NCBI GenBank assembly: GCA_027080995.1
Contig: JALWNT010000118.1
Location: 1-64,000 of the forward strand
DNA: 64,000 bases
Direction: 5' to 3'
From: Campylobacteraceae bacterium
GTDB taxonomy: Bacteria; Campylobacterota; Campylobacteria; Campylobacterales; Sulfurovaceae
Shown: positions 6,711 through 28,190 of the stretch, one piece after another
Layout of the letters: each line of letters begins with the position of its first letter
Numbering within the stretch: the first letter of the stretch is position 1
Position numbers and translations under genes: made by a program
The notes under the pieces: generated by a model
The model's database searches: none
What the model saw: the letters and a program-made list of their open reading frames with translations, nothing else
What the model was told of the DNA's origin: nothing

Positions 6711-6793
6711 GCGGACGTGGTGGAATTGGTAGACACGCTGGATTTAGGATCCAGTGCTTCGGCGTGAGAGTTCGAGTCTCTCCGTCCGCACCA
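6711..6793 (+). tRNA. tRNA-Leu (TAG); contains attL of the integrative element
   Basis: GCGGACG...CTGGATTTAGGATCCAG...GAGAGTTCGAGTCTCTCCGTCCGCACCA. Confidence 0.95.
6739..6766 (+). repeat. attL core
   Basis: Identical to 15612-15639. Confidence 0.92.
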
Positions 6794-6856
6794 CAGCCCC
6801 GTAAAATCGAATCTCCTGAAGCATACTTAAACTAAATATTCTCTTTAAGCTTTCCC

Positions 6857-6886
6857 TGGGTAGCACTTTGGGTAGCACTTTTTAGC
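6857..6886 (+). repeat. 30-bp direct repeat, candidate integrase arm-type sites (left)
   Basis: TGGGTAGCACTTTGGGTAGCACTTTTTAGC, identical to 15485-15514. Confidence 0.85.
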
Positions 6887-6926
6887 AGGAAAACTGTCTC
6901 AATTTGTAGCAGGCTATAATAATCGT

Positions 6927-7217
6927 ATGAGACTTCTAACTTTTTTCTTCGATCTCTTTGCCATCTTCATAGGAGGGGTAGTTTTCATAGCGGGAGCGGG
7001 AGCGCTCACTATCTGGATAACGCAGAGTGATACGGCGGGCGTTTGGGCTATTGGGATCGCCGCCGTAGTATGGCTCTATACCCTCTTCCGGTATATCGTC
7101 GCCTGGGTTGATGAGGTGTCGCCGGAGGAGGAAGCGGGGATAGCGTTGATCCTGCTGGCGTTTGTCGCGGGGGCCATTATCGGTAACGTTGATTGTGACG
7201 CGGAAAAGGAAACCTAA
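6927..7217 (+). CDS. Small multi-TM membrane protein (element cargo)
   Basis: MRLLTFFFDLFAIFIGGVVFIAG..., about three hydrophobic segments; opposite orientation to the rest of the element. Confidence 0.65.
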   Translation: MRLLTFFFDLFAIFIGGVVFIAGAGALTIWITQSDTAGVWAIGIAAVVWLYTLFRYIVAWVDEVSPEEEAGIALILLAFVAGAIIGNVDCDAEKET

Positions 7218-7720
7218 TCCTCATCTTCAATGAGCGCGATAGTATCCTGAAGCAGCTCACTCCCAAAGGCGTGGCGGGCTGCTGCTTCTACGATCCGGTC
7301 ATGATATTCATCGGGTAACGTTCTCAAAAGTTCCAAAGCGAAAGCGGCCAGTGTCGCGTTAGCTGTGTTACAGGTTATGATCTCCTGCTTGACCTCTTTC
7401 AGATCGACGCCTTCCGGGATTGTGAATTGATCGACACTAAAATCAGCAGGGATCAGGTTCCAGACGTCCGGAAGTATGCGGACCTCTCCCCGGCGGCGGG
7501 CGTTAGCTTCCCTTTGAGCGTCACGGCTGGGGTCTCTGGCGTTGATGATTGCCTCTTTGACCTCATCGTAGATAAACATTTTGCGCTTTTTGCCGGGAAG
7601 CTTATGGAAAGGTACCACTCCATCACGTACCAGCTGCGAAAAGTAGCTTTGGGTGAAATCCGCAACCTTTCCCATTTTGAGGCGTCCAAGCACTTCACGG
7701 GCGTTTAAATATTCAGACAT
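7214..7720 (-). CDS. N-terminal HTH-like protein, possibly related to phage terminase small subunit (Nu1-like)
   Basis: MSEYLNAREVLGRLKMGKVADFTQSYFSQLVRDGVVPFHKLPGKKRKMFIYDEVKEAI; family assignment tentative. Confidence 0.6.
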   Translation of the reverse strand: MSEYLNAREVLGRLKMGKVADFTQSYFSQLVRDGVVPFHKLPGKKRKMFIYDEVKEAIINARDPSRDAQREANARRRGEVRILPDVWNLIPADFSVDQFTIPEGVDLKEVKQEIITCNTANATLAAFALELLRTLPDEYHDRIVEAAARHAFGSELLQDTIALIEDED

Positions 7721-7869
7721 AGTGTCTCCTTGAAATTCTGATACTTTGCCGCTACGCGGCACCTTGATAGCTCCGAAAGTTTTAGCAAGTTCCGAGATAG
7801 GAAACTACCTATTTTCCGCGGCTCGCAAGCCCCGCAGTCTGCTCTATCTCCAGAAGGACCCGCGGCCTT

Positions 7870-8151
7870 TCACTCAGCCAGCAGAATCCGACCATCCTCG
7901 ATCTCGACGACCTCAGTCCTGTCACCATTGACCGCGACCTCCAGAATCTTCGCCGCCTTCCCTTCGATCGCTTTCGCCAATTCCATCAGGGCGATTATCT
8001 TTTCATCGACGAGCTCGCCCTCTGCTGCAAGGAAGAAGATGGCCCGCGCCAGCCCGTCGATGCCGTAGGTAGCGTTCTCCACCTGTTCAGACGCTCCGTT
8101 TCTGAGGAGTACGCCGAAAGTCTTTTCTCCTTTGCCGGGCTGCTTACTCAT
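7870..8151 (-). CDS. Hypothetical protein of the element
   Basis: MSKQPGKGEKTFGVLLRNGASEQVENATYGIDGLARAIFFLAAEGELVDEK... Confidence 0.65.
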   Translation of the reverse strand: MSKQPGKGEKTFGVLLRNGASEQVENATYGIDGLARAIFFLAAEGELVDEKIIALMELAKAIEGKAAKILEVAVNGDRTEVVEIEDGRILLAE

Positions 8152-8440
8152 CACAACCTCCAAACGTTTCACAGAGAAAGTTCCATTCTTCATCGGTGAT
8201 CGACGGAGAGAGCAGCACCTCATCCGACAAGTCCGGGAGAGATACGGGCTTGAAGCCGTTGACGTCTATCTCCCGATCTCCGTTTTCATACTCGATCAAC
8301 TCATCCCCCATGAAGATTACATAGACGCCTTCATCGTCAGCCAGTCGAACTACCCCGAGCTCCCGGCTTCCAAGCTCCCGGGCCTCTTCATCGTTGAGGG
8401 CCGCACCTACTACGAGTTTCAAATCTTTGTTACTATTCAT
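8144..8440 (-). CDS. Hypothetical protein of the element
   Basis: 98-aa ORF in a minus-strand operon, overlapping the next start. Confidence 0.6.
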   Translation of the reverse strand: MNSNKDLKLVVGAALNDEEARELGSRELGVVRLADDEGVYVIFMGDELIEYENGDREIDVNGFKPVSLPDLSDEVLLSPSITDEEWNFLCETFGGCDE

Positions 8441-8500
8441 CTGTCAATCCTTTCCTGGGTTGATGAGGTCGGGGCCTGCTTCCACACATCCCCCGACCTT

Positions 8501-8701
8501 CTACTTTGGATCTTCGGCTTTGTATGCCTCGATCAACTCTTTCGCTTTCTCCAGTGTCACGCCCAACTCTGCCAATGTCTCTTCACAGTGATAACTCTGT
8601 TTGATCCGCTGATAGAGCTGAGGGCGTGTTTTCTTCCACCGGCTGAAAGTCACGGGGCCGATGCCGATCTCTTCGGCTATCTGTTTGTCGGTTTTTCCGA
8701 T
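8501..8701 (-). CDS. 66-aa HTH (Cro/phage regulator-like) protein, apparent ATC start
   Basis: AGGAGG-6nt-ATC; (M)GKTDKQIAEEIGIGPVTFSRWKKTRPQLYQRIKQSYHCEETLAELGVTLEKAKELIEAYKAEDPK*; no ATG/GTG/TTG available in frame before the HTH. Confidence 0.55.
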   Translation of the reverse strand: MGKTDKQIAEEIGIGPVTFSRWKKTRPQLYQRIKQSYHCEETLAELGVTLEKAKELIEAYKAEDPK

Positions 8702-8759
8702 TCTTCACCTCCTGTTCTGGGTTTGGGATAATCTCCCTTCAGGTATCATAGCACCAGGG

Positions 8760-9030
8760 CGGCTATAATGTCAAGGTTAAATTATCTATTTGATAACCTA
8801 TTCCCATTTTAATGGGATAGTATTATTATTTAGATAATTACTTTTCCCGTTTAAGGAAACGACTAAACCGCCATGATCCGCCCCCGAGTTATTCACATAT
8901 CGCTATCAAATTGGGAGATTTTCCCAAAAATCTTATCAATTTAAGGAAAGTTATTCACACCCCCCCAAATAGCGTTATCTAATTGATAATGACCCCCCTC
9001 TAATTGATAGAGTGGTTAACATAATGTAGA
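8760..9030. promoter_or_regulatory. AT-rich intergenic region with dyad repeats and DnaA-box-like motifs; candidate element origin/operator region
   Basis: TTATCTATTTGATAA (8782-8796), TTATCTAATTGATAA (8975-8989), TTATTCACA at 8889-8897 and 8951-8959. Confidence 0.5.
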
Positions 9031-9070
9031 TTCTCTCGAAAAGAAAAATCGAAACCTTAAACGACGGCCA

Positions 9071-10114
9071 TCACGCCCGCGCGGGGGCCGTCCGCAACTC
9101 TTCCGCCACGGCGTCCAGAGATCCGGGGTCCTCCAGCAGGCTGGCAATATCTTTCCCTGCCAGGGTTTTCACATACTCCAGGGCTTTGGAGCGCTTGACC
9201 TTCCGCCGGATGAGTTCCGCCGCCAGATGGGCCGACGGGTCGGGCTCCGGCGTTTCGCTCTCCTGCTGGCCAGAGGCAGCAGTCGCCGGCTCGATCAGCA
9301 GGGCGTTAAGGTCTTTGGGCGCCGACGCTTCAGGCTCCTGGACCGCTTCGGCCTCGATGATGACCGCCGACTTATTGAAGCGTTCATAGTCCGGGATACT
9401 CCCCTTCTCTACTACATCATCGATACTCAGGGCGACGGTAACGTCATGATCTCCCAGGGGTAGGCGCTTGATGTGGCGCTTGATGGCGGACTTGACCGCC
9501 ATAGCCTCGTACCACTCCCACCAGACGCCCGACGGTTTGCGGGGGTCCTTCTGGGTCTGGCTCTTCATTCGGATCTTCTCGATCTCCGCTTTCGTCATAA
9601 TCTGATAGAAGAGCTCCCCGTCTTTGGCCTTGACGATGGTCACCACCTTTTGAAGATTCTCGAAGGTCCAGGCGGGATCGGATTGCCGGGCGTCGAAGTC
9701 GGGCTTATAGTGCAGCCGCTCCTCCCATCCGTCCACCTCGAAGGAAAGCTCATCGGAGGAATAGACGGGGTAGGCTTTGATATGCCAGCCGATACGCTCC
9801 AGCATCGTGATAAAGCCCCGATAGCCTATCTGGAGTTGGCAGACGGTGGCGCCGTCCCTCCGTTTGAATGGAATGAGATAGGCCTGTCCCAAATTGGGAT
9901 CGGGCAGGAGCCGAAGCATAGCGGCGGCGATACCCGCCTCGATGATGCTTTGAGGGGTGCAGGCCGCCAGGTTGGGATTGAGGCCCGCCGCCAGCAGCGT
10001 GGCGGTGAACTTTTTCGCACGGGCGGGGTCGCCCATCAGAGACTCGATCATCTTGACCCGCGGGACCAGCAGCCTCCGGAGTTCTTTTTCTTTGGCCGGT
10101 AGGTGTTTCGTCAT
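9071..10114 (-). CDS. recT: RecT family single-strand annealing recombinase
   Basis: CTPQSIIEAGIAAAMLRLLPDPNLGQAYLIPFKRRDGATVCQLQIGYRGFITMLERIGW; WWEWYEAMAVKSAIKRHIKRLP. Confidence 0.92.
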   Translation of the reverse strand: MTKHLPAKEKELRRLLVPRVKMIESLMGDPARAKKFTATLLAAGLNPNLAACTPQSIIEAGIAAAMLRLLPDPNLGQAYLIPFKRRDGATVCQLQIGYRGFITMLERIGWHIKAYPVYSSDELSFEVDGWEERLHYKPDFDARQSDPAWTFENLQKVVTIVKAKDGELFYQIMTKAEIEKIRMKSQTQKDPRKPSGVWWEWYEAMAVKSAIKRHIKRLPLGDHDVTVALSIDDVVEKGSIPDYERFNKSAVIIEAEAVQEPEASAPKDLNALLIEPATAASGQQESETPEPDPSAHLAAELIRRKVKRSKALEYVKTLAGKDIASLLEDPGSLDAVAEELRTAPARA

Positions 10115-10219
10115 AGTGTGCTCCTTTCGATTCTGAGCGTTTTTTTTTGTGGTTGGGGCTAAAGAGAATATGCCCAAAGCTCTCTTTCGCCGTTTTTGCC
10201 CCCATTGCGGGCCGCTGTA

Positions 10220-11029
10220 CTAAGATGCTTCCGCTTCCTGCTGTCGCCAATACCACGCCGGGAGTGAAATCGGCTCCACCACGGCGGCGGCTCCCGTCGC
10301 GTTGAACTCCCGGAGGCGGCTGAGGTGGCGGCGGTAATCCTCCCGCCCCGCGGTGATGGCGTCGGGCTGGATCTCGAAGACTCTCACCAGGTGCGGCGTC
10401 GTCTTCTCCACCGCGACGACGACGAAGGTCTCAGCCGGGAATCCCGCCAGCCGGAGCGTATCGACGTACCAGGCGGCCTGACGGTGATAGCGGTAGTCGT
10501 AAATCGCCCGCTCAAACTCGTGGGGGTCCGTGCTCCGGGTCGTTTTGAGATCGATAACGGCACCTGCCTCCCGAAGGTAGTAATCCGGACGACATTTGCG
10601 AACGACGCCGAACTCATCATCGGGAACGAAAAAGCTGACTTCGGCCATTCCCTCCCGGAGAATGCCCCCGGCGATGGCCCGGACGTTTTCCGCCATCCGT
10701 TCCGCCGTTGCCCACTCATTGACGGGAACGACGGTCTTTCCCTTGCAGGACTCCAAAAAAGCCTCCCGGCCCTCTTTGTAGGCTTTGGAGTTCTTATTGG
10801 CGTCGCAGCCGGGGAAATCCTCTTTGATGAACTCTTCCCCCATCCGCTCCGGCTCCAGCACCATAGAGTGCAACAGCGTTCCGAAGTCGAAGGCTTTGCC
10901 CTCCAGCTTGAAGCGGTCGCGGTTGAGGTAGTGAAGCGGGCTCAGTTCCAGCAGGCGGAAATCGCTGGCGCTGATTCCCTCCGCCGCCCGGTAGGCTTCG
11001 TTACTCATCTGTCTCGGGTTTTTTTGCAT
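10220..11029 (-). CDS. PD-(D/E)XK nuclease, RecE/DUF3799-like
   Basis: ISASDFRLLELSPLHYLNRDRFKLEGKAFDFGTLLHSMVLEPE; CRPDYYLREAGAVIDLKTTRS. Confidence 0.85.
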   Translation of the reverse strand: MQKNPRQMSNEAYRAAEGISASDFRLLELSPLHYLNRDRFKLEGKAFDFGTLLHSMVLEPERMGEEFIKEDFPGCDANKNSKAYKEGREAFLESCKGKTVVPVNEWATAERMAENVRAIAGGILREGMAEVSFFVPDDEFGVVRKCRPDYYLREAGAVIDLKTTRSTDPHEFERAIYDYRYHRQAAWYVDTLRLAGFPAETFVVVAVEKTTPHLVRVFEIQPDAITAGREDYRRHLSRLREFNATGAAAVVEPISLPAWYWRQQEAEAS

Positions 11030-11090
11030 AAATGCTCCTTGTATGTCTGTTTTCCGCCGGCCGGACGGGTCTGAAGGCGCCGTGACGCCC

Positions 11091-11369
11091 TCAAATCAAC
11101 CCGGCTTTTATCAACCGCTCTCGGACCTCATCGACACCGTGGGCGACAAAAGCCACGCCGCCCGCCTCCTTGATCCTCTGGAGGTGATGAAGTTGGAGCG
11201 GCGTCGCCTCTTTCCCGGGCCGTTTGACCTCGATCCCTACGAATTTCCCACCGATACAGGCCAATATGTCCGGGGCTCCCGCACGGTTGGCAGCTATCAG
11301 TTTCACCGAGTAGGCTCCGACTTCCTCCAGGAATGCCAATATTCGCTTTTGGACTTTCTGCTCTATCAT
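11091..11369 (-). CDS. VRR-NUC domain nuclease
   Basis: GAPDILACIGGKFVGIEVKRPGKEATPLQLHHLQRIKEAGGVAFVA. Confidence 0.85.
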   Translation of the reverse strand: MIEQKVQKRILAFLEEVGAYSVKLIAANRAGAPDILACIGGKFVGIEVKRPGKEATPLQLHHLQRIKEAGGVAFVAHGVDEVRERLIKAGLI

Positions 11370-12025
11370 CTCTTCCTCCCTTCATCCACGCCCTTTTGAG
11401 CATTAAAAAACCTCCAAGCGTTATCTACCGTTAGAGGATCCCTTAGCTCCAATCCTCTCAAAACACTCTCCTTGTATCTGTCTATGTCTTCGATGTCCCG
11501 AATCTCTTCATAGGGTCTGAGTAGGGATCTCTTCACCCTCTCCCCCATAAGAAACTCTATGAACTCTTCAAAATGCTCTTTTGCATTGATGACGACTTTC
11601 TCAGCGGGGTCGCCGCCCTTCACGCGTGCGTGCGCGCGGTCGTCGTAGATTTGTTGTAGTTCTAATATTGTGTGTGCAATTTTTGCACTACCAACCCCCC
11701 TAAGCGGTGCAATTTTTGCACTACTTTTTGAGGGGGTTTTCCAGTGGCTCCCGATGGCGTATGAGTTGAACTTCCCGGGGCCGCCGCGCCGAACGGAAAT
11801 CATCTTTTTCCCCTGGAGCTTTTCAAGGGCGGTAATGACGGTGTGACGGCTGAGGCCGGTCGCCTTTTCAAACTGGCTGAGGCTGATCCCATCCCACTTT
11901 TTCCCGTAGCCGGTCGTCTGTCTGACGATGTGTAGCAGAATCCGAAACTCTGAGGGCGGTAGCGTGGGATCGTCCAGCATTTCGGCGGGGACTTTGATAT
12001 AATGCTCATTGTCTGTTTCCCGCAT
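11366..12025 (-). CDS. Phage-type replication protein (winged HTH, replisome organiser-like)
   Basis: EFRILLHIVRQTTGYGKKWDGISLSQFEKATGLSRHTVITALEKLQGKKMI. Confidence 0.7.
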   Translation of the reverse strand: MRETDNEHYIKVPAEMLDDPTLPPSEFRILLHIVRQTTGYGKKWDGISLSQFEKATGLSRHTVITALEKLQGKKMISVRRGGPGKFNSYAIGSHWKTPSKSSAKIAPLRGVGSAKIAHTILELQQIYDDRAHARVKGGDPAEKVVINAKEHFEEFIEFLMGERVKRSLLRPYEEIRDIEDIDRYKESVLRGLELRDPLTVDNAWRFFNAQKGVDEGRKR

Positions 12026-12029
12026 CTCA

Positions 12030-13217
12030 TCAGCTCGGTAACCGCTCGGTGAACATCCGGGCCTTGAAATCGATATGCTTGAGTGCCACCGCCTGATAAA
12101 CCGCTTCGCTCACTTGTCCCCTACTCATCAGAATGTGAACGTTTATCGGGCTCTTTCTCTGCTTTGACGCCTGGCGGGCGTTGCGCTGCTGAAAGCGGGC
12201 GGTGCTGTAATCCATGCTGGCGATGATGAGGTGTTCGACGTGGCTCAGCTCCACCCCTTCGGCGTGGGCGTGGCTGGAGAGGATCAGCGCTCTCTCGAAC
12301 TCCCGCTCCAGGATTTTCCGCTGTCCCACCCATCGGCACATGATGGCCACGTCTTCACTGTCGCCCCAGCGGGCCTTGATGTAGTTGACCAGCTCCCGCT
12401 CTCCCGTATCGATATACTCCCCTCCGATCTTCAGACAACCGCACTCCAATTGATAGCATCCGTTGACCAGCCCCATCGGGGTATCGGCGGCGAAGCTCCC
12501 CAATACCCTGTCACGTTTGAGCCGCTCGATATAGCTCAATGTCCGTGGCGAAAGTTCCACAGTGTGGGGAACGACTTTCGGGGCGTATTTGAAGCCCAGA
12601 TCTTCCCGCCGAATCTGGAGCAGATAGGGGCGGACGTGCTCCATTACCCGCTCGGTTTTCGCTTCCCGGTAATCGTTGACGATCCGGCCCATAACGTGGC
12701 GCTGTTTCCGGTTGACGTAGATCCGGGACCACTCGTAGAAGTTTTTGAACGCGCTGAAGGGATGGGCGGCGCTCATCCAGAGCGGGTGAAACCACTGGCT
12801 CGCACTCTCCGGGGCCGGGGTGGCACTGACCAGGATCATCGGGAGTTCCTTCCAGCGTTCCCGGATCAGCTTCGCTTTAGCCGGAGCCTTTGGGAAAGCG
12901 CTGATCGCATAGTGAAACTCATCGATGACGATGAGGTCGAAGTCTCCGGCCACTTTGTGGAGGCTTTCGTAGTTGACGACGGTGAAGGCTTTGGCGGTGC
13001 CGTGCTTCTCCCGGTCGCCCTCGATGCCGCCGATAGCCGCTTTCTTTGTGATCCATAGGACGCGGCGGACGTCGGGGAGCCCCTCGATGGCGTCGATGAC
13101 CGCCAGGGTCTTCCCGGATCGCTCCGGGGCGTGCAGGATCGCCAGCCCTTTGGACCTCAACCGTTCCCGCAAAGCGACGGAGAGCCGCTTTTGATGCTCA
13201 TAGAGCTCTATTGCCAT
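12030..13217 (-). CDS. Phage-type SNF2/DEAD-like helicase
   Basis: LHAPERSGKTLAVIDAIE, LIVIDEFHYAI, MILVSATPAPES, QQRNARQASKQRKSPINVHILMS. Confidence 0.85.
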   Translation of the reverse strand: MAIELYEHQKRLSVALRERLRSKGLAILHAPERSGKTLAVIDAIEGLPDVRRVLWITKKAAIGGIEGDREKHGTAKAFTVVNYESLHKVAGDFDLIVIDEFHYAISAFPKAPAKAKLIRERWKELPMILVSATPAPESASQWFHPLWMSAAHPFSAFKNFYEWSRIYVNRKQRHVMGRIVNDYREAKTERVMEHVRPYLLQIRREDLGFKYAPKVVPHTVELSPRTLSYIERLKRDRVLGSFAADTPMGLVNGCYQLECGCLKIGGEYIDTGERELVNYIKARWGDSEDVAIMCRWVGQRKILEREFERALILSSHAHAEGVELSHVEHLIIASMDYSTARFQQRNARQASKQRKSPINVHILMSRGQVSEAVYQAVALKHIDFKARMFTERLPS

Positions 13218-13227
13218 GCCGGGCCTC

Positions 13228-13509
13228 TCAGGGCTCTACGGTGCGGGCGGCAATAAAGGCCTCAATGTCTTTGCGGCGGAGTCGGACCGACTTTCCCATC
13301 TTGACGAAGGGGATTGAACGGTTATAAACCTGTTTCCTCCAAAAAGAAGCGGTTTGGCCATACTCCGTAGACGCTTCCGACACACTGAGTAATTCTTTAG
13401 GTTTTTGCGTCTTGACCTGAAGCCTCTGGAGCTTTTCGTCAATTGTTTTCTTTACACTTTCCTCGAATATTGATAGAAGTTGATTGATATCGATAAGTTG
13501 TGCTTCCAT
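13228..13509 (-). CDS. Excisionase/MerR-like HTH protein
   Basis: KELLSVSEASTEYGQTASFWRKQVYNRSIPFVKMGKSVRLRRKDIEAFI. Confidence 0.75.
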   Translation of the reverse strand: MEAQLIDINQLLSIFEESVKKTIDEKLQRLQVKTQKPKELLSVSEASTEYGQTASFWRKQVYNRSIPFVKMGKSVRLRRKDIEAFIAARTVEP

Positions 13510-13609
13510 ATCGTAGCCCCTTTTTGTGTGGTTTGATATGGAATATTATTGTTATGGGGGAATGTAAATATCGAAATTTTTTCTTAAAATATAAGAAATT
13601 TTCTGGAGG

Positions 13610-14308
13610 TTACTTGAATAGATTGAACATTTTGCAGATCTTATTAGCTCTTTCAGAACCTGTTTTACATTCGTCGATCAGCATTCTTTTTGTAAGATCC
13701 CGGCAGATATCTATCAGTGCTTTTCTGTCAAGGTATTTCACATCGTCTATGTAATCGAGAGATTCTAGTATTTTGTTCAGTTCTACACTCGATTTTTTCA
13801 GATATGGAGTAAGCTCCTCCAGATCCTTCTCTACTCTTTGGATCATTCTTTTCATTCGTGCATTTCTGTTCTTGTCACTGTCCAAAACTTTAAAGTTCGC
13901 AATGATCAACTTAGCTGTATGGACGACAACTGAAACTTCAACCGCCTCACAAATAGTTTTGATCTCGTCAAACCATTCTTCCGACGAGTCGATACCCAGT
14001 TCCAAAGCGGTAAGTTCATTAACCTCTGAGATAGCTTCGCTTTTACAGCCTTCCAGTCCATAGATGAGGAATGTTTCGTAAACAGTATAGTACGCAGCCA
14101 TTCTTGCCGTAATATTACCAATGGCCAATATAACTCTTAGATCGGATACGTCATCCTTCCCTATTAAACTTTCAAGTCGCTCAATAATGTAACCGTAGTA
14201 GGTTGTTTTGTTGTCGAGTTTTTCAGCTGCTTTGATATCGAACTGAACAGTTTTGACAATTTCCCACAGTTTCTTCAGTGAAGCTTCTTTCAGGTGCGCT
14301 CTGCTCAT
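13610..14308 (-). CDS. Uncharacterised largely helical 232-aa protein (candidate element cargo)
   Basis: Low-GC ORF overlapping the integrase start by ATGA; no recognised motif. Confidence 0.7.
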   Translation of the reverse strand: MSRAHLKEASLKKLWEIVKTVQFDIKAAEKLDNKTTYYGYIIERLESLIGKDDVSDLRVILAIGNITARMAAYYTVYETFLIYGLEGCKSEAISEVNELTALELGIDSSEEWFDEIKTICEAVEVSVVVHTAKLIIANFKVLDSDKNRNARMKRMIQRVEKDLEELTPYLKKSSVELNKILESLDYIDDVKYLDRKALIDICRDLTKRMLIDECKTGSERANKICKMFNLFK

Positions 14309-15453
14309 TCCCCGATCTTCCTCAGCAGTCGATCCGTTACCGCTTCAGCCGTCTTGAGCGATAGCGTTGAATAGCGGGCGGTCGTGGTAGCGTTGTTGTG
14401 TCCCAGCACCTTCCCGATGGCTTCCAGGGAAACGCCGTCATTGGCCATCAGGTAGCCGATGAGGTGGCGCGTGTCGTGGATCCGCATACCCAGCACCCGG
14501 GCGGTGGCGGTCACGCGTTCCCAGTGACGGCGAAGGGTCCCCCGGTTTATCTTCCCGCCGGTCGTCTTTGCCCGGAATACCAGTCCCCGATGATATTGCG
14601 GCTGCTGCTCCAGCACCTCCATGAGGTAGGAGGTCAACGGATAGGCCATAGTCCGCCGGGCTTTGTTGTATTCCGCCTCAATGATGTAAACGCTCTGCTC
14701 TCCTTTGATGTTCTGCCACTCCAGGCTCAGCACCTCATTTAGGCGGCGTCCGTGTATGAGGAAAACAAAGATCCCCCGATAAAGCGGGTCGGGGTAATCC
14801 AGTATCGCCCGGAACAGTCGGCGGGCGGAATCTACATCCATCTCGAAATAGCGCTTATTGTCAAACTTCGGGATGTTCAGTTTCGCGGCGGGGTTGTGGG
14901 AAACGATATTGAGGTCTATCGCGTAATTGAAAAAGGGCCTCATATAGTCCTGGATGTTCTTTGCCGTCCGAGGTTTGCCTCCGTTGGCCAGGATTCGATT
15001 GATGATCCCTTGAAGATCCCGCGCCGTGACCCTCTTGATCTGTTTGGAGCCGATATAGGGCTCGATATGCTTCCCGAATATCAGGCGTTGGATCTTGACG
15101 TTTTCAGGCGATAGGGAACTCTCTTTGAGCCGGAGGTAGTCTTCCCAAAGGGCCTTTAAAGTCTTTGTGCTCTCCTGGCTGATAGCCCCTTCCTTGAACT
15201 GCTGGAGCATCTTGACCCGTTCGGCGGCGGCCTTCTTGACCGCTCTTCCCATCGTCATGGCTTTGAAACTGAGTGTCTTGTGGGTCTGCCTGCCTGAGAC
15301 TTTCAACCTCAGCACCAGTTCGATGGTCTCCTCTTTGACTTTGCGGAAATCCGCTTCGGTAATGCTTCGCTTCTCAGGGAAACGGGAATAGAGGTCCTTG
15401 TAGTAAATGCCGGGGGACCCCTCCACCTTTTTCAGGTTGTCATAGAGCGCCAA
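14305..15453 (-). CDS. int: Tyrosine recombinase/integrase
   Basis: LIHGRRLNEVLSLEWQNIK, GMRIHDTRHLIGYLMANDGVSLEAIGKVLGHNNATTTARYSTL. Confidence 0.96.
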   Translation of the reverse strand: MALYDNLKKVEGSPGIYYKDLYSRFPEKRSITEADFRKVKEETIELVLRLKVSGRQTHKTLSFKAMTMGRAVKKAAAERVKMLQQFKEGAISQESTKTLKALWEDYLRLKESSLSPENVKIQRLIFGKHIEPYIGSKQIKRVTARDLQGIINRILANGGKPRTAKNIQDYMRPFFNYAIDLNIVSHNPAAKLNIPKFDNKRYFEMDVDSARRLFRAILDYPDPLYRGIFVFLIHGRRLNEVLSLEWQNIKGEQSVYIIEAEYNKARRTMAYPLTSYLMEVLEQQPQYHRGLVFRAKTTGGKINRGTLRRHWERVTATARVLGMRIHDTRHLIGYLMANDGVSLEAIGKVLGHNNATTTARYSTLSLKTAEAVTDRLLRKIGE

Positions 15454-15471
15454 TTCTGACTCCTTTTCCAG

Positions 15472-15514
15472 TGGGTAGCACCACTGGGTAGCACTTTGGG
15501 TAGCACTTTTTAGC
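15472..15514 (+). repeat. TGGGTAGCA repeats, candidate integrase arm-type sites (right)
   Basis: TGGGTAGCACCAC followed by TGGGTAGCACTTTGGGTAGCACTTTTTAGC (15485-15514, identical to 6857-6886). Confidence 0.85.
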
Positions 15515-15611
15515 GCTAAAACCGTGTTACATCATAGCAAGTTATAAAAAGAGTTTCCCTTAAAATGGGCATTTATGGGGGAGGATATCAATTCAGCGAA
15601 GGGGGGTTAAT

Positions 15612-15666
15612 TGGATTTAGGATCCAGTGCTTCGGCGTGGAGGTTCGACTCCTCTCGTCCGCACCA
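15612..15666 (+). repeat. attR plus displaced tRNA-Leu 3' end
   Basis: 28-bp core then GAGGTTCGACTCCTCTCGTCCGCACCA. Confidence 0.93.
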
Positions 15667-16383
15667 TCACTTCTGTTTCCGAAAAACATTCTTTCGATGA
15701 AACTCCAGATAAGGCAGATGCCTCTCGTCAATTCGTCGCAACTTCATGCCTTCATGTATTCCCATCTTATTCGCTTCTTTCCAATTCCATATCGGGCTGA
15801 TTTTCAAAACTCCATCGTTGTCGAAGGTGATGAAACCCTGGTCAAAAGCTCTATCCAGGGCCGTGTTGAGAAGCAGGGCGTTGTAGAGATCCAGTTTTTC
15901 GGCGGCGGTGTCGCACATACTCCAGGGTTTGATGTGGCTGGCGATAAGAAGTTCCGGAGTTTTGATCTCGGTGACGGCACATTGACCTTCCCAGTATTCC
16001 ATCAGACGTTCCCGAAGTTTTTCCTGGCCTCTGCGCTGTTTTACCAACGTTTCGACGTCGGTAGTCACGGCATCGGGTTCTTCGAAGGGAAGCTTGACAC
16101 TCTTTTTTAGCCAATAGAGCAGTTCGGAAAGCTCCAGGGCCATGGCATAGGGGAACCCGTGTGGTGTATCGTCGATTTGGACGAAATGGGCGTTTTCGAA
16201 GATGTTGAGCTGCATCGCCGTCGCTTCGGGTAGTGCCAAAATGGGTAGATCTGCGATTTTCAGTGCGACACTGTGGCGGTAATAGGAGGAGGTTCCTACG
16301 ATCCAGTCATCCCGAAGTTCATGCCGGTCGTAGCCGGCATCGGTAAGAAGTTTTTCCAGGTAGATGGCCGTCACTTGATTCAT
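15667..16383 (-). CDS. HNH endonuclease
   Basis: QCAVTEIKTPELLIASHIKPWSMCDTAAEKLDLYNALLLNTALDRAFDQGFITFD (HNH_2-like). Confidence 0.85.
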   Translation of the reverse strand: MNQVTAIYLEKLLTDAGYDRHELRDDWIVGTSSYYRHSVALKIADLPILALPEATAMQLNIFENAHFVQIDDTPHGFPYAMALELSELLYWLKKSVKLPFEEPDAVTTDVETLVKQRRGQEKLRERLMEYWEGQCAVTEIKTPELLIASHIKPWSMCDTAAEKLDLYNALLLNTALDRAFDQGFITFDNDGVLKISPIWNWKEANKMGIHEGMKLRRIDERHLPYLEFHRKNVFRKQK

Positions 16384-16395
16384 AGGAAAGTCCCT

Positions 16396-17319
16396 TCAAC
16401 CGGTTTGCAAGATTTTCGATAGCTTTGCCACGGCTTCGGCTCTTTTTTCCGGGGGCATTTTGTCGAGATTCAGCATTTTCCAACGCACGGAGGGGAGACT
16501 TTCAACCCTTTCGAACGGAAGCAGATCCCACCGAGGCTCTCCCCGTTTGAATCCCATCAAAAACTCCTTGTGCTCCATTGTCATTTTCTTGTGGATGATC
16601 CCAAGGAACTCTTCCCGTGTTTGCAGCAACGTTTCCAAAGAGACGGGGGAGACTGTCATGCCGGAAAACTGCTGTTCGTAGATCTCTCTCATGTCATGAA
16701 AATTGGGCTGAAGCAGTTTGGCGATACTCTGATTGGAACTGACAAGATAGACGATGAACGCATTCATCAGTTCACTATCGATTCCTTCATTGTCAAGCAG
16801 ATTCCTGATATCAAAAAGATCCCGCGGATGTTGACGGTCGAGTGCCGCACACATTTTCCCGGCATAGAGATCGTTCATTTGGACGATTTGACACTCGACA
16901 AAGCCGAACTCCTCTTCGACCGCATCCGAAACCTTTCTCGTATCGGCTTCATAGAGCGTTCCTCTCATAACCGGCGACGTTTCGATCTTGATGCGCACAT
17001 CCGATCGTTCGACCTGGAGTTTCGAAAGCGTTTCATCCTCATGCTGCCCAATACGATGAACTTTCGAACCTCTTATGCCACGCTCGACCCGTTCGGCGAT
17101 TCGCGTGAAGGCTTCGGCGATATGCGTAAGAGAGGTGTCGCGATCTTCAATCGGCAGATAGGCCAGATCGATATCGACAGAAAGCCTCGGCATATCCCGT
17201 ATGAACATATTGATGGCCGTTCCGCCTTTGAGCGCAAAACTCTCTTCCTCCGCCACATAGGGCAGAACACTTATCAGCAGTTGCACCTGCCGGTAATAGA
17301 TGCTCGTTCTATCCAGCAT
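16396..17319 (-). CDS. abiEii: AbiEii/AbiGii-type nucleotidyltransferase toxin
   Basis: FALKGGTAINMFIRDMPRLSVDIDLAYLP. Confidence 0.9.
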   Translation of the reverse strand: MLDRTSIYYRQVQLLISVLPYVAEEESFALKGGTAINMFIRDMPRLSVDIDLAYLPIEDRDTSLTHIAEAFTRIAERVERGIRGSKVHRIGQHEDETLSKLQVERSDVRIKIETSPVMRGTLYEADTRKVSDAVEEEFGFVECQIVQMNDLYAGKMCAALDRQHPRDLFDIRNLLDNEGIDSELMNAFIVYLVSSNQSIAKLLQPNFHDMREIYEQQFSGMTVSPVSLETLLQTREEFLGIIHKKMTMEHKEFLMGFKRGEPRWDLLPFERVESLPSVRWKMLNLDKMPPEKRAEAVAKLSKILQTG

Positions 17320-18082
17320 CGTTTTGAGCCCTCGGAACGGTAATCAGATAGGTTCTGTCCAGCTTCCCGTTTTTTGCGATCTGCATTTTTCCTGTACCGA
17401 TTTCAACGGCATCTTTTTCAATATATTTCGACCATGGATGATTATAACGATCACAAAAATAGAGAAAGAGTCGTTTGACTTTGACACTTTCACAATTTTG
17501 CAGCAATTTGTTCAGCAAACCGGGACGCAGTGATGTGAGATTTTCAAAAATCTCCGCCACAAAGGTAAAGGTAACTCCCTCTTTTTCCACGAGATAGAGC
17601 AGTTCCAAAATGGCTCTTTCGGGTGAAGATATTTGAATCTCGTAATCCCTGATGCCGCTTGGATAATCTTTGAGTCCCAGGTCGCCGAACCACGGTTTTT
17701 TGTAAAACTCGAATTGGAATGTTGAGGCAATGTTTTTCAACCATGCCGGGGGATTCTTTTGGCTATAGAGTGCAATGCGCTCCTTGCGGGAGAGTGGAAG
17801 ATAGTGCGCGAACCCCTGCAGGTTCAAAGCACTCAATCCCCCCACGTAAACCGCAAGGCCGGCGAATTGTTGTACACCCACCATCACACCTTTCCAGTTG
17901 GGCTCCACTTCGGATCGGGCATAGAGCCCCCGTCCGAGTTTTTGCAATATCCCCTGTGTGACATATTTGCTGATCAGTTGTGTGGAATACCCCTGTTCTC
18001 TCAACCAACTGCTGGGAACAGCCACTTTTTCGGGTAAAGTCCTGTACAGCAGTTTCAATTTTCCATTTTTTTGCAAACTCAT
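17309..18082 (-). CDS. abiEi: AbiEi-type antitoxin/regulator
   Basis: SKYVTQGILQKLGRGLYARSE; GGLSALNLQGFAHYLPLS; ISSPERAILELLYLV; overlaps abiEii. Confidence 0.85.
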   Translation of the reverse strand: MSLQKNGKLKLLYRTLPEKVAVPSSWLREQGYSTQLISKYVTQGILQKLGRGLYARSEVEPNWKGVMVGVQQFAGLAVYVGGLSALNLQGFAHYLPLSRKERIALYSQKNPPAWLKNIASTFQFEFYKKPWFGDLGLKDYPSGIRDYEIQISSPERAILELLYLVEKEGVTFTFVAEIFENLTSLRPGLLNKLLQNCESVKVKRLFLYFCDRYNHPWSKYIEKDAVEIGTGKMQIAKNGKLDRTYLITVPRAQNDAG

Positions 18083-18125
18083 AGTTTGTATTTTAGCTTT
18101 TTATGAAACCAAAAGCAATCTTGAT

Positions 18126-18191
18126 TAGAAAATCGCCGTCGTATCCGATATTGGTAAGGAGTTTTTCCAGGCAAATGGTCGAGTGGTTCAT
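18126..18191 (-). pseudogene. Relic of the 5' end of an HNH gene paralogous to 15667-16383
   Basis: MNHSTICLEKLLTNIGYDGDFLI vs MNQVTAIYLEKLLTDAGYDRHEL, with visible nucleotide similarity. Confidence 0.65.
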
Positions 18192-18442
18192 GCTCCTACA
18201 TTTTATCTGGCTCTTTCAAGCTTGGCCCCCCATCTCTTGATAAACTGCGATACTAGATAAAGCCATAATTTTGGGATTTTCATCAGCTTGGCCTCTAACT
18301 TGGCCCCCATCTTGGCCCCCTGGGATTTTCGCCTGAATCAGCAATATATATCCAGCTGAAAATCTCCCTGGAGGTATCGGCAAAGGCTGAAATCTTCTTC
18401 CATACCGAGTTTTCATCGGTTTGGATAAGGTTTTCTATCTGT

Positions 18443-20239
18443 TCATAGGTCATCATCATTCGGATAACTCTTCTTTCCCATAGCTTTTTCGATAAGTGCA
18501 AGCAGTCTTTGACGCCGATCTTCGATGAACTCATCGAATCTGTTTTCTCTTAACAATTTGGCCGAGAGCGCGTGACTTTCAAGTAGTTTATCCATCTCCT
18601 CGTCACTTAATTGCACCTGTTTTTCATGTTGGATTTTCGGTAAATAGACAGATGGAGCGTCCCCGCCGATTTTACGATTCGCTTTATACGAAATCGAAGT
18701 TTTGTTTAATATAGAGTCATACCTTTCCCGTGGAATGCCTTGTTTGATACACCAATCCTTTGGAAAAATATGATGGATATCCAGAGCGATTTCGTTGGCA
18801 TCGAGCTCTCGAATTGTCGCTTTCCAAAACCAATCTTTCGCGCCTTCCCGAAGAATCAAAACATTGATCCCCTTATATGCTGCACTGAGGCGCGAACGCA
18901 ACGTATCGAAACGCTCCTGCTGAAAGAAGGCATCTTTGACCGTCCGAGGGACCATTGCATCATCTTCGAACCATTGCAGCAGTTCTTCATAGTCGTTGGC
19001 CATCCGCGTTTCCACGGCTCCACCATACAGCTCACCCAACACTCCGCACCAGTACCATCTGCTTAATTTGTCGTAAATGCGAGGCTCGAGCCATCGATCC
19101 TGCAAGCGGGCCATAACCGCAGCGAGCGGAATAAGTTGTGTCGAATAGGGAAGTTCTTTACGCGCGTAGAAAGCCTCTTTTTTTAAAAATTTAGCCGCCT
19201 GTATGAAGCCTCTTTCCACTTCCGGTGCCCATTGTTTCCAGGATTCCAGAGGCAGTTGCAGGACGTCTCCTCTCTTTGCACTGACGGGTTTTGCCTGTTT
19301 GCCTGTTTTGCCTGCCTCGATATCGGCTTTTTTCAATTCGTGGGTATGAAGCAGGGTCACGGCCTGCAAAAACTCCGGTGCTTCAATACCTTTGAGCATC
19401 GGTTCTTTTTCGAGTCGCTCTTTGCGTGATTCGACATGGCGTATTTCCGAACCGAACCAGTCATCTCTCAAATTGTATCCGTCTGCGGCATAGCTTGCCG
19501 TAATAAGTTCAAAGACAGAAAGTGAAACACCTCCGGTATTGACTTTTTCAAACACCAGACACACCGCTTCTTTCGAAGTCTCCTTTTTCAATTCGATGAC
19601 AGGAATTTGATAGTTTCGAAAAGCGCTTAAAATCGTTTTTCGAAAATCCATATAAAGTTTTATCTTTTCCGGTGAAATTTCATAAAATATCTCTTCCCAT
19701 TCATCGGAATTCATCACCTGATCACATGGAAAATAGAGCTGCGCACATTCCAATTCCCGCGTAGAAAGATCCAAAACAACATCCCGTCCAAAATTGGTGC
19801 GGATCTGTCGATTTTCGTCGACCGCCACGATCGCTTCATCCAGTGCGTGGGGTGATTCCAACGCCTTTTGAATGTCAAAGTAATAGTGCCGTTTGATCGC
19901 TTTGCCCTTGTTGGTCCGGGTATTGACGGGCGAAGTGAGGTAGATAGCCTGAGTCAGTGTTGTTAGACGTTGTTGACCATCGAGAATGAGTTTTTCCGGG
20001 ACGGTATCAGGAGAGATCTCATGCTCCAACCCTTCCACGGGACGGGTTTGAAACCGAACTTCACCACCGGACTCAAGCAGCATCACCGCCCCGACTGGAA
20101 AGGAGCGTGCCACACTGACAAGCAAATCTTTGATATGGTCATCATCCCACACCCAACCCCGCTGAAAATCGGGAAGTTGAATTTTTCCGCTTTTGATATC
20201 TTTACAGAAGATCGGAAAGTAGAATTTTCGTACTGTCAA
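18443..20239 (-). CDS. DUF262 + C-terminal HNH-like (DUF1524) protein, GmrSD-type candidate defence nuclease
   Basis: IQLPDFQRGWVWDDDHIKDLLVSVARSFPVGAVMLL; KLILDGQQRLTTLTQ; IALDIHHIFPKDW. Confidence 0.85.
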   Translation of the reverse strand: MTVRKFYFPIFCKDIKSGKIQLPDFQRGWVWDDDHIKDLLVSVARSFPVGAVMLLESGGEVRFQTRPVEGLEHEISPDTVPEKLILDGQQRLTTLTQAIYLTSPVNTRTNKGKAIKRHYYFDIQKALESPHALDEAIVAVDENRQIRTNFGRDVVLDLSTRELECAQLYFPCDQVMNSDEWEEIFYEISPEKIKLYMDFRKTILSAFRNYQIPVIELKKETSKEAVCLVFEKVNTGGVSLSVFELITASYAADGYNLRDDWFGSEIRHVESRKERLEKEPMLKGIEAPEFLQAVTLLHTHELKKADIEAGKTGKQAKPVSAKRGDVLQLPLESWKQWAPEVERGFIQAAKFLKKEAFYARKELPYSTQLIPLAAVMARLQDRWLEPRIYDKLSRWYWCGVLGELYGGAVETRMANDYEELLQWFEDDAMVPRTVKDAFFQQERFDTLRSRLSAAYKGINVLILREGAKDWFWKATIRELDANEIALDIHHIFPKDWCIKQGIPRERYDSILNKTSISYKANRKIGGDAPSVYLPKIQHEKQVQLSDEEMDKLLESHALSAKLLRENRFDEFIEDRRQRLLALIEKAMGKKSYPNDDDL

Positions 20240-20343
20240 ACATTGTCATTTGTCATTTTTCTCCCTTGTCGATCTATCGTACTCCTCCGACACTAACTTT
20301 CGCGTCCTATTCTCTCCAGATTTTTATGACGGAAAAGAAAGGG

Positions 20344-21066
20344 TCAAAAAACGCCGGGATGGCTGGCATTGTTTTCGGTAGCTACGGCTGCAGCGGGAGC
20401 CGGCATATGCGGTTGGATCGGGACCATTTTTTTGAGATAGGCTTTGATGTGTGCCGGAGTCTTTTTGTTGACCCGGTATCCCACCTTTTGCAGATCGTAG
20501 TAGACGAAGGGAAGGTAATGCTCCCGGGTAACCACCACCTTGGTCTTGTGCGTCGCCCATTTGAACATCGTATTGGCCCCCTTTTCGCCTACGTGGATGC
20601 ATCCGTGGCTCATCGCGTTGGTGTTGCCCATATGGATGGCGTGTCCGCGGTTGGTGAAGAAGAGGGAGAAGTCCATATTATTGATCCCCTTGGGGTCCGG
20701 GTGGGCTTTGGACATATAATAGCGCTCTTTGCGCAGGACGCGGAAGATCCCCGAGGGGGTTTCGTGCCCCTCGGCCCCCGAGGAGATGGAGGCGGCCCAC
20801 CAGACCACCCCGTCACGATCGACGGCATACGCGGCTCCGTCGGCTCCTTTTTCCCGTAGAGAGACAACGATGAAATCCTTGCCTTTTAAATCGACTTTTT
20901 TCTCTTTCCCGTGATCGTCGATGACGGCAAACTCCGTTTTGCTCAACGGAATGACCCGACTACGGGTATTTTTGCTTTTGTCAACTTTGGCATTTGCCGC
21001 CGCCAGCGGTAAAAACATCAACGCTGTTGTCACTATCGTCAACCCTATCGTTTTCCAATTCCTCAC
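20344..21066 (-). CDS. L,D-transpeptidase (YkuD)
   Basis: HAIHMGNTNAMSHGCIHVG; signal peptide if GTG at 21066 is used. Confidence 0.85.
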   Translation of the reverse strand: MRNWKTIGLTIVTTALMFLPLAAANAKVDKSKNTRSRVIPLSKTEFAVIDDHGKEKKVDLKGKDFIVVSLREKGADGAAYAVDRDGVVWWAASISSGAEGHETPSGIFRVLRKERYYMSKAHPDPKGINNMDFSLFFTNRGHAIHMGNTNAMSHGCIHVGEKGANTMFKWATHKTKVVVTREHYLPFVYYDLQKVGYRVNKKTPAHIKAYLKKMVPIQPHMPAPAAAVATENNASHPGVF

Positions 21067-27907: not shown

Positions 27908-28179
27908 TATTACCGCACCAACTATATACCTCAAACATTGAGAGAATGAGACGAGGGAAGATGTGCGTAAAGAAATCTGAAGGACTACCCGTAGGTAATT
28001 CAATGATTTATTTGCGTGCAGATTGCCTCGTATCGTTCTCCCCGAAGGGTGAGGCACTTTCGCCCATAGGCTGCGTTGGATTTTCTTGAATTCGCTTAGG
28101 CGAGTCCTGCAAAAATCCGCCTTGCCTATGAACGAAATTGCCTCATCAATGTTTGAGGTATATAATTGGTGCGGTAATA
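27908..28179. repeat. ~272-bp MITE-like element with 34-bp terminal inverted repeats
   Basis: TATTACCGCACCAACTATATACCTCAAACATTGA at 27908-27941; its reverse complement at 28146-28179 matches 33/34. Confidence 0.85.
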
Positions 28180-28190
28180 TCTATGAGGCG

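Follow-up and report, generated by a model that had tools for sequence, protein, structure and literature searches.

The closest described counterparts of the locus reported here are the phage-inducible chromosomal islands (PICIs) of Gram-negative bacteria that use a cos (cohesive-end) site, of the EcCICFT073 type. These carry a tyrosine integrase, a helix-turn-helix (HTH) regulator or excisionase (xis) and their own replication genes, have no virion genes, use a cosN identical to that of the phage, and encode a packaging protein in which the DNA-binding domain of a small terminase subunit (TerS) is joined to another C-terminus (PMC6092414, PMC6739421). In E. coli PICIs, Rpp joins the TerS of the helper phage and redirects it to the cosB of the island; the C-terminus of TerS contacts the large terminase subunit (TerL) (PMC6739421, PMC6092414). 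The window analysed here, the whole 64,000-nt stretch of contig JALWNT010000118.1, contains an 8.9 kb integrated element at 6739-15666 that, taken with its relatives, resembles these islands in size class and in each of the features just named. We conclude that it is very probably a phage satellite of the cos type, intact and integrated in a Nitratifractor genome, operating in the same manner as Gram-negative PICIs; its packaging would depend on a phage.

The likeness has limits. The Nitratifractor island has a lambda O-like initiator, a helicase and RecE/RecT instead of Pri-Rep, its terminase system is the phrog_57/phrog_15 system of Campylobacterota prophages, and its TerS-like protein has no detectable sequence similarity to Rpp. 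The host phylum is not reported for such islands in the open-licence PubMed Central (PMC) papers searched, and searches of that text brought to light no account of phage satellites from Campylobacterota, in keeping with the initial annotation of this DNA, which was aware of no well-described satellites in the lineage. A cos satellite of this kind is apparently new to the phylum. The phage-inducible chromosomal minimalist islands (PICMIs) of Vibrionaceae are also small satellites without capsid-remodelling genes and are packaged as concatemers (PMC10803314), as the island would be; unlike it, they integrate beside fis, have an int/alpA/prim core, and have no cos or TerS found in them (PMC10803314).

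Three islands at two attachment sites

The initial annotation had placed the DNA in a Campylobacterota-like host, and the host is indeed Nitratifractor: the source assembly measures 1.97 Mb and its nearest record is Nitratifractor sp. S013_45 (G039). That sister genome holds a near-identical island at the same tRNA-Leu gene, with proteins mostly 66-97% identical (45% for an orphan of 117 aa). A more distant relative, 8.2 kb long and with a different integrase, lies at the 3' end of the tmRNA gene in G037, a complete 2.10 Mb Nitratifractor genome, presumably of N. salsuginis. Its core runs in the same order as in the window (helicase, Rep-O, VRR-NUC, exonuclease, RecT, small HTH, TerS-like). 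The recurrence of gene order in related genomes, which the initial annotation had proposed as a check, is therefore found at tRNA-Leu in G039 and, with another integrase, at tmRNA in G037, and the island is conserved as a unit independent of prophages (three elements, two sites, two integrases). Ten genes were compared with G039; every one is intact and under purifying selection, the ratios of non-synonymous to synonymous substitution rates (dN/dS) being 0.05-0.28. The frameshifts that would have marked a dead element are absent.

Beyond the genomes named here, no further close relatives were found among 176 genomes of the family. In G038 (L051 4094-4172), about 76 bp of the left end of the island follow tRNA-Leu and then give way to the normal chromosomal flank, so this genome probably once held the island and has since lost it. 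PICIs are defined as using unique, specific attachment sites that phages do not use (PMC6092414). The attachment sites used by the islands are tRNA-Leu and tmRNA, and no prophage lies at tRNA-Leu in the genomes read, a reading that was not a survey of all integrases. Relatives of the helicase elsewhere in the family were considered as further satellites and rejected: the larger two contigs, L018 and L019, look by eye like virulent-phage DNA, and the rest are too short to judge. The G039 island is divided between two contigs, whose overlap is exactly 151 nt, and the assembly break (L050 end / L016 start) falls inside the HTH_17 gene, hinting at strain variants or a second copy there.

The boundaries of the element are defined by the following attachment (att) features.

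6711-6793 (+): tRNA-Leu(TAG), the target gene, with the attL core at 6739-6766 (ARAGORN, repeats, alleles in 13 genomes)
6856-6922 (no strand): arm-type repeats GGGTAGCACTTT, left end; an 81% repeat pair with 15484-15550, conserved in G039
15484-15550 (no strand): arm-type repeats, right end; repeat pair with the left end
15612-15666 (+): attR, a copy of the tRNA-Leu 3' part with the original host T-arm and flank (repeats; matches element-free G043)

The tRNA-Leu gene is the last of five tRNAs. A repeat search found its 3' part again at 15612-15666 and nowhere else in the window, and a shuffle test gave an expectation of 0 copies. The initial annotation had described exact att repeats bracketing 8.9 kb. 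Its ends, 6739 and 15666, are correct, but the repeat is exact only over a 28-nt core (6739-6766 = 15612-15639) and the last 11 nt; overall identity is 47/55 nt (85%), and the T-arm between the exact stretches differs by compensated changes. The two copies in G039 match at 55/55. When tRNA-Leu alleles were compared in 13 genomes, element-free G043 was found to have the T-arm and the bases after CCA of the window's right copy (GGAGGTTCGACTCCTCTC...ACCATCACTT), which indicates that the left tRNA 3' half arrived with the element and that the right copy is the displaced old host end. This arrangement of alleles is the one expected of site-specific integration, and the GGGTAGCACTTT repeats just inside both ends are probably arm sites of the integrase.

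Directly outside attR, positions 15667-20346 hold 4.7 kb with an HNH endonuclease, an AbiEii/AbiEi toxin-antitoxin and a GmrSD-like gene. This stretch is absent after tRNA-Leu in G038, G043, G045, G047 and G037, there is no third att copy, and it looks like a separate defence insertion.

A predicted cos site and a TerS-type domain shared with a prophage

Two features on the minus strand, near the left end of the island, bear on packaging.

7214-7720 (-): putative TerS-like packaging protein, 168 aa, ATG at 7720; TerS-type winged-HTH N-terminus (1-81) and unrelated C-terminus, an Rpp-like arrangement
7812-7861 (-): predicted cos site, made of a GGGTCCTTCT box and a cosN-like dyad GCGGGGCTTGCGAGCCGCGGAAAA (7812-7835), from the sequence pattern

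The element is tied to phage packaging because it shares this cos site and a TerS-type DNA-binding protein with a Nitratifractor prophage. The prophage, in G037 (L072/L073, G037:C1 about 1763.3-1801.7 kb), is apparently complete, about 38.5 kb long and located beside selB, and carries integrase, tape measure and baseplate genes (coordinates and tail genes were read by eye). It and the G037 island have TTTTCCGGGGTTCGCGAGCCCCGC in common without a mismatch (24/24 nt), in each case roughly 100 nt ahead of terS, and the window carries a version that departs from it at a few positions. These 24 nt are the longest word common to the G037 island and its prophage, and 60 shuffles of the island under a Markov model reached at most 17. 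The word is near-palindromic (16/20), and GGGTCCTYCT stands before it at a constant distance. The DNA between cosN and terS differs between island and phage. In 13 genomes the whole pattern occurs only in the three islands and one prophage, always 41 nt long; in 400 genomes of the order, a sample that excluded G039, it occurs at two islands and at two terS-proximal prophage sites and nowhere else. By position, dyad symmetry and exclusivity, we predict that 7812-7861 is a cos site. At sequence level a cos-type packaging signal is common to island and phage, as expected of phage satellites in general and, in the form of a phage-like cos site, of PICIs (PMC6092414). Comparison of the cos region of the G037 prophage with a phage collection gave one chance-level match.

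The gene at 7214-7720 appears to encode the DNA-binding half of a phage TerS on a C-terminus that is not that of TerS. A search of 398 genomes of the class returned homologues in four other places, in G037, G346, G367 and G202 (E-values in this set 2.7e-15, 1.8e-16, 6.6e-9 and 8.4e-9). All four genes overlap the beginning of a TerL gene, and genes for portal and head proteins come next (neighbours assigned by eye); in PHROGs all four are TerS phrog_57, and the G037 neighbours are TerL phrog_15 and portal phrog_21. Alignment of the island proteins with the phage TerS by hhalign gave an E-value of 1.4e-25 over columns 1-81 only. The N-terminus of TerS in the G037 prophage is 40% identical to the island protein, while the C-terminal halves have no detectable similarity to phage TerS in any of the three islands. 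The predicted C-terminal half is helical in a low-confidence model (mean predicted local distance difference test score, pLDDT, 60), and a PDB sequence search gave nothing significant and revealed no similarity to Rpp (6HLK, 6HN7). The G037 prophage is thus like the island in the 24-nt cosN, the GGGTCCTYCT box before terS and the TerS N-terminus; it is unlike it in being a full phage with TerL, portal and head genes, and in its TerS C-terminus and replication genes.

As a correction to the initial annotation, the TerS-like gene that matters is the one at 7214-7720. The small HTH protein at 8501-8704 was considered for this part and rejected: its PHROG matches span only the HTH and mix TerS with regulator families.

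A TerL of the helper type was found only in G037 of the 13 genomes, and the prophage there is a candidate helper for the G037 island. Sulfurimonas phage SNW-1 has the GGGTCCTTCT box just before terS, and its TerL is the nearest to the helper type among phage records (36%), but it is a complete 37 kb phage. NrS-1-like phages were rejected as helpers since NrS-1 lacks the cos pattern.

Gene content and control regions

The remaining features of the element, from left to right, are these.

6927-7217 (+): small membrane protein, 96 aa, cargo; 78% identity in G039, absent from the G037 element, dN/dS 0.28
7870-8223 (-): orphan, 117 aa, conserved part C-terminal; 45% in G039, 34% in G037
8144-8440 (-): orphan, 98 aa, an open reading frame (ORF) with no family match (Pfam, PHROGs)
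8501-8704 (-): small HTH protein, 67 aa, conserved non-canonical ATC start after AGGAGG; 97% in G039, 78% in G037, dN/dS 0.05
8705-9070 (-): conserved non-coding control region with a sigma70-like promoter TTGACA-18-TATGAT (8774-8745), two DnaA-box-like TTATTCACA and repeated ATCAATTNGAT motifs
9071-10117 (-): RecT single-strand annealing protein (Pfam RecT 1.7e-27; phrog_148)
10220-11029 (-): PD-(D/E)XK exonuclease, DUF3799 / RecE-like (phrog_412 1.6e-67; Pfam)
11091-11369 (-): VRR-NUC nuclease (phrog_93 5.9e-22); 55% to NrS-1
11366-12025 (-): lambda O-like replication initiator (Phage_rep_O 9.9e-9; phrog_678 5.8e-14)
11674-11721 (no strand): two palindromic iterons GTGCA-N5-TGCAC in the O gene (11674-11688, 11707-11721), candidate origin; two per island
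12030-13217 (-): SF2 helicase (phrog_62 3.1e-30); 38% to the NrS-1 helicase
13228-13509 (-): HTH_17 protein, excisionase / AlpA-like regulator (HTH_17 6.8e-7; phrog_66, phrog_1840)
13610-14308 (-): orphan all-helical protein, 232 aa, in an accessory slot beside int; 66% in G039, dN/dS 0.23
14305-15453 (-): tyrosine integrase, HxxR, H and Y motifs intact (Pfam 1.2e-19; phrog_1 6.5e-47); 94% in G039

Each function that the initial annotation had assigned from the translations (integrase, excisionase-like HTH, helicase, Rep-like protein, VRR-NUC, PD-(D/E)XK nuclease and RecT) was borne out by Pfam/PHROGs, the Rep-like protein as the lambda O-like initiator. The same searches of the element ORFs agreed with it in finding no capsid, portal, large terminase, tail or lysis gene, and also found no relaxase or conjugation gene and none of the capsid and packaging genes that capsid-forming PICIs (cfPICIs) have of their own. 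The regulator at 13228-13509 matches HTH_17 and phrog_66, 'excisionase and transcriptional regulator', with no AlpA match in Pfam at E ≤ 0.1. For the 232-aa orphan no confident family or fold was obtained (AlphaFold pLDDT 42), and PADLOC found no defence family among the orphans.

Several of these genes have phage relatives: the helicase (38%) and VRR-NUC (55%) in Nitratiruptor phage NrS-1, and RecT (31%) in NrS-4/5. Unlike the island, these are complete phages, and NrS-1 has a primase and virion genes and no cos motif. Iterons within the O gene are the layout of the lambda origin. Here there are two in the O gene of each of the three islands, their changes are symmetrical, and they occur nowhere else in the window. 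The promoter upstream of the small HTH gene matches sigma70 at 11/12 positions. This gene, at 8501-8704 (-), has no ATG, GTG or TTG start; in all three islands AGGAGG/GGGAGG lies 5-6 nt upstream of a conserved ATC codon, which suggests that a rare AUC start is used. Its frame is supported by the dN/dS of 0.05. Elsewhere in the window, 27908-28180 is a 273-bp repeat resembling a miniature inverted-repeat transposable element (MITE), with terminal inverted repeats of about 34 bp and a fold energy of -140 kcal/mol; the genome has about 10 full or partial copies, and G038 has an empty site.

Alternative readings and a proposed route to packaging

The initial annotation had read the element as a phage satellite, and this is supported by a gene order that is kept at both attachment sites although the integrases differ, and by the cos site and TerS-type protein shared with a prophage. 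Several observations weigh against it. On its own, the TerS-like protein gives no convincing PHROG or Pfam match; its fold model is of low confidence, and a PDB fold search with that model returned no significant match, 6hn7_B appearing only at an E-value of 2.2. The winged helices of TerS, Xis and MerR-type proteins look alike, and similarity in DNA binding would be weak evidence if it were not backed by synteny and the cos match. The position of cosN is a predicted one. No prophage with a phrog_15-type terminase is present in the window's own genome or in G039, so a helper must come by infection or lysogeny. Finally, mobilisation of the island by a phage is a prediction from sequence.

The element could instead be a decayed prophage, the early region of a lambdoid phage kept by chance after deletion of the virion genes. 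Its replication, recombination and cos/terS parts are all phage-derived, and Nitratiruptor phages have relatives of its helicase, VRR-NUC and RecT. We nevertheless regard decay as very unlikely: the same core recurs in three elements, which occupy two sites and use different integrases, no gene is broken, dN/dS is 0.05-0.28 in all ten genes compared, the att sites are intact, and the absence of the TerS C-terminus from the TerS-like protein of all three islands points to specialisation rather than random loss. A complete prophage with a close homologue of the whole element, named in the initial annotation as a sign of decay, was looked for and not found; among phages the closest matches are confined to single modules, with identities of about 31-55%. 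An integrative element or plasmid with phage-derived replication genes, spreading without phage by conjugation or transformation, would agree with the host genome having no resident helper prophage with such a terminase, but it is quite improbable given that no relaxase or conjugation gene was found among the ORFs and that the cos site and TerS-like gene are positioned as in cos phages. Nor does it seem likely that the island is a true, previously overlooked member of the known PICI lineage with the same gene families. Size, integrase, HTH_17 regulator, own replication, cos and TerS-like DNA-binding domain would all fit, yet there is no Pri-Rep gene, replication relies on an O-like initiator and a helicase, the regulator finds its match in HTH_17 but none in the AlpA family at E ≤ 0.1, and the TerS-like protein has no sequence similarity to Rpp among solved structures.

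A last alternative accepts the satellite and concerns its packaging protein, which might be a complete TerS that brings the helper TerL to the island, or might only block helper packaging, and so not be of the Rpp type. A DNA-binding domain with a C-terminal half modelled as helical, at low confidence, is consistent with this, and pac-type Staphylococcus aureus pathogenicity islands (SaPIs) carry their own TerS (SaPI TerS plus Ppi, PMC6739421). However, lambda TerS binds TerL through its C-terminus (PMC6739421), and no similarity could be detected between the C-terminal half here and TerS of the cos phages that share the cos; we hold this alternative to be possible but doubtful. An Rpp-like role is favoured over that of a stand-alone TerS because the Rpp strategy has the same hallmarks as the island: a cosN in common with a phage, a stretch from cosN to terS that is not the phage's, and a foreign C-terminus attached to the DNA-binding domain of TerS. 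Whether the islands form a separate Campylobacterota satellite family, which arose from lambdoid-type early genes and independently made an Rpp-like redirector from phage TerS by keeping the DNA-binding half and replacing the rest, we judge to be evenly balanced.

For the satellite reading, the following route can be proposed. Supported by sequence are its opening steps: the tyrosine integrase inserted the island at tRNA-Leu by recombination in the 28-nt core; the lambda O-like initiator with its iterons, the SF2 helicase, VRR-NUC, the RecE-like exonuclease and RecT form its own replication and recombination module; and its predicted cos is of the type that precedes terS in GpA-terminase prophages of relatives. 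During replication of a helper phage that has this type of cos, the island may excise, with the HTH_17 protein as Xis or activator, and replicate to concatemers, which helper TerL would cut at the island cosN. The TerS-like protein might combine with helper TerS in a mixed complex and direct it to the cosB of the island, the part that Rpp plays in E. coli PICIs. Helper heads would in this way be filled with island multimers; with four copies these come to about 35 kb, compared with an estimated 38.5 kb or so for the candidate helper.

With an island and a candidate helper in one complete Nitratifractor genome, the biology of cos satellites can now be tested directly in this lineage. The TerS-like protein, if the proposal is true, is an independent case of the Rpp strategy, and would test whether stealing a cosN and half of TerS is a general route to satellite life.

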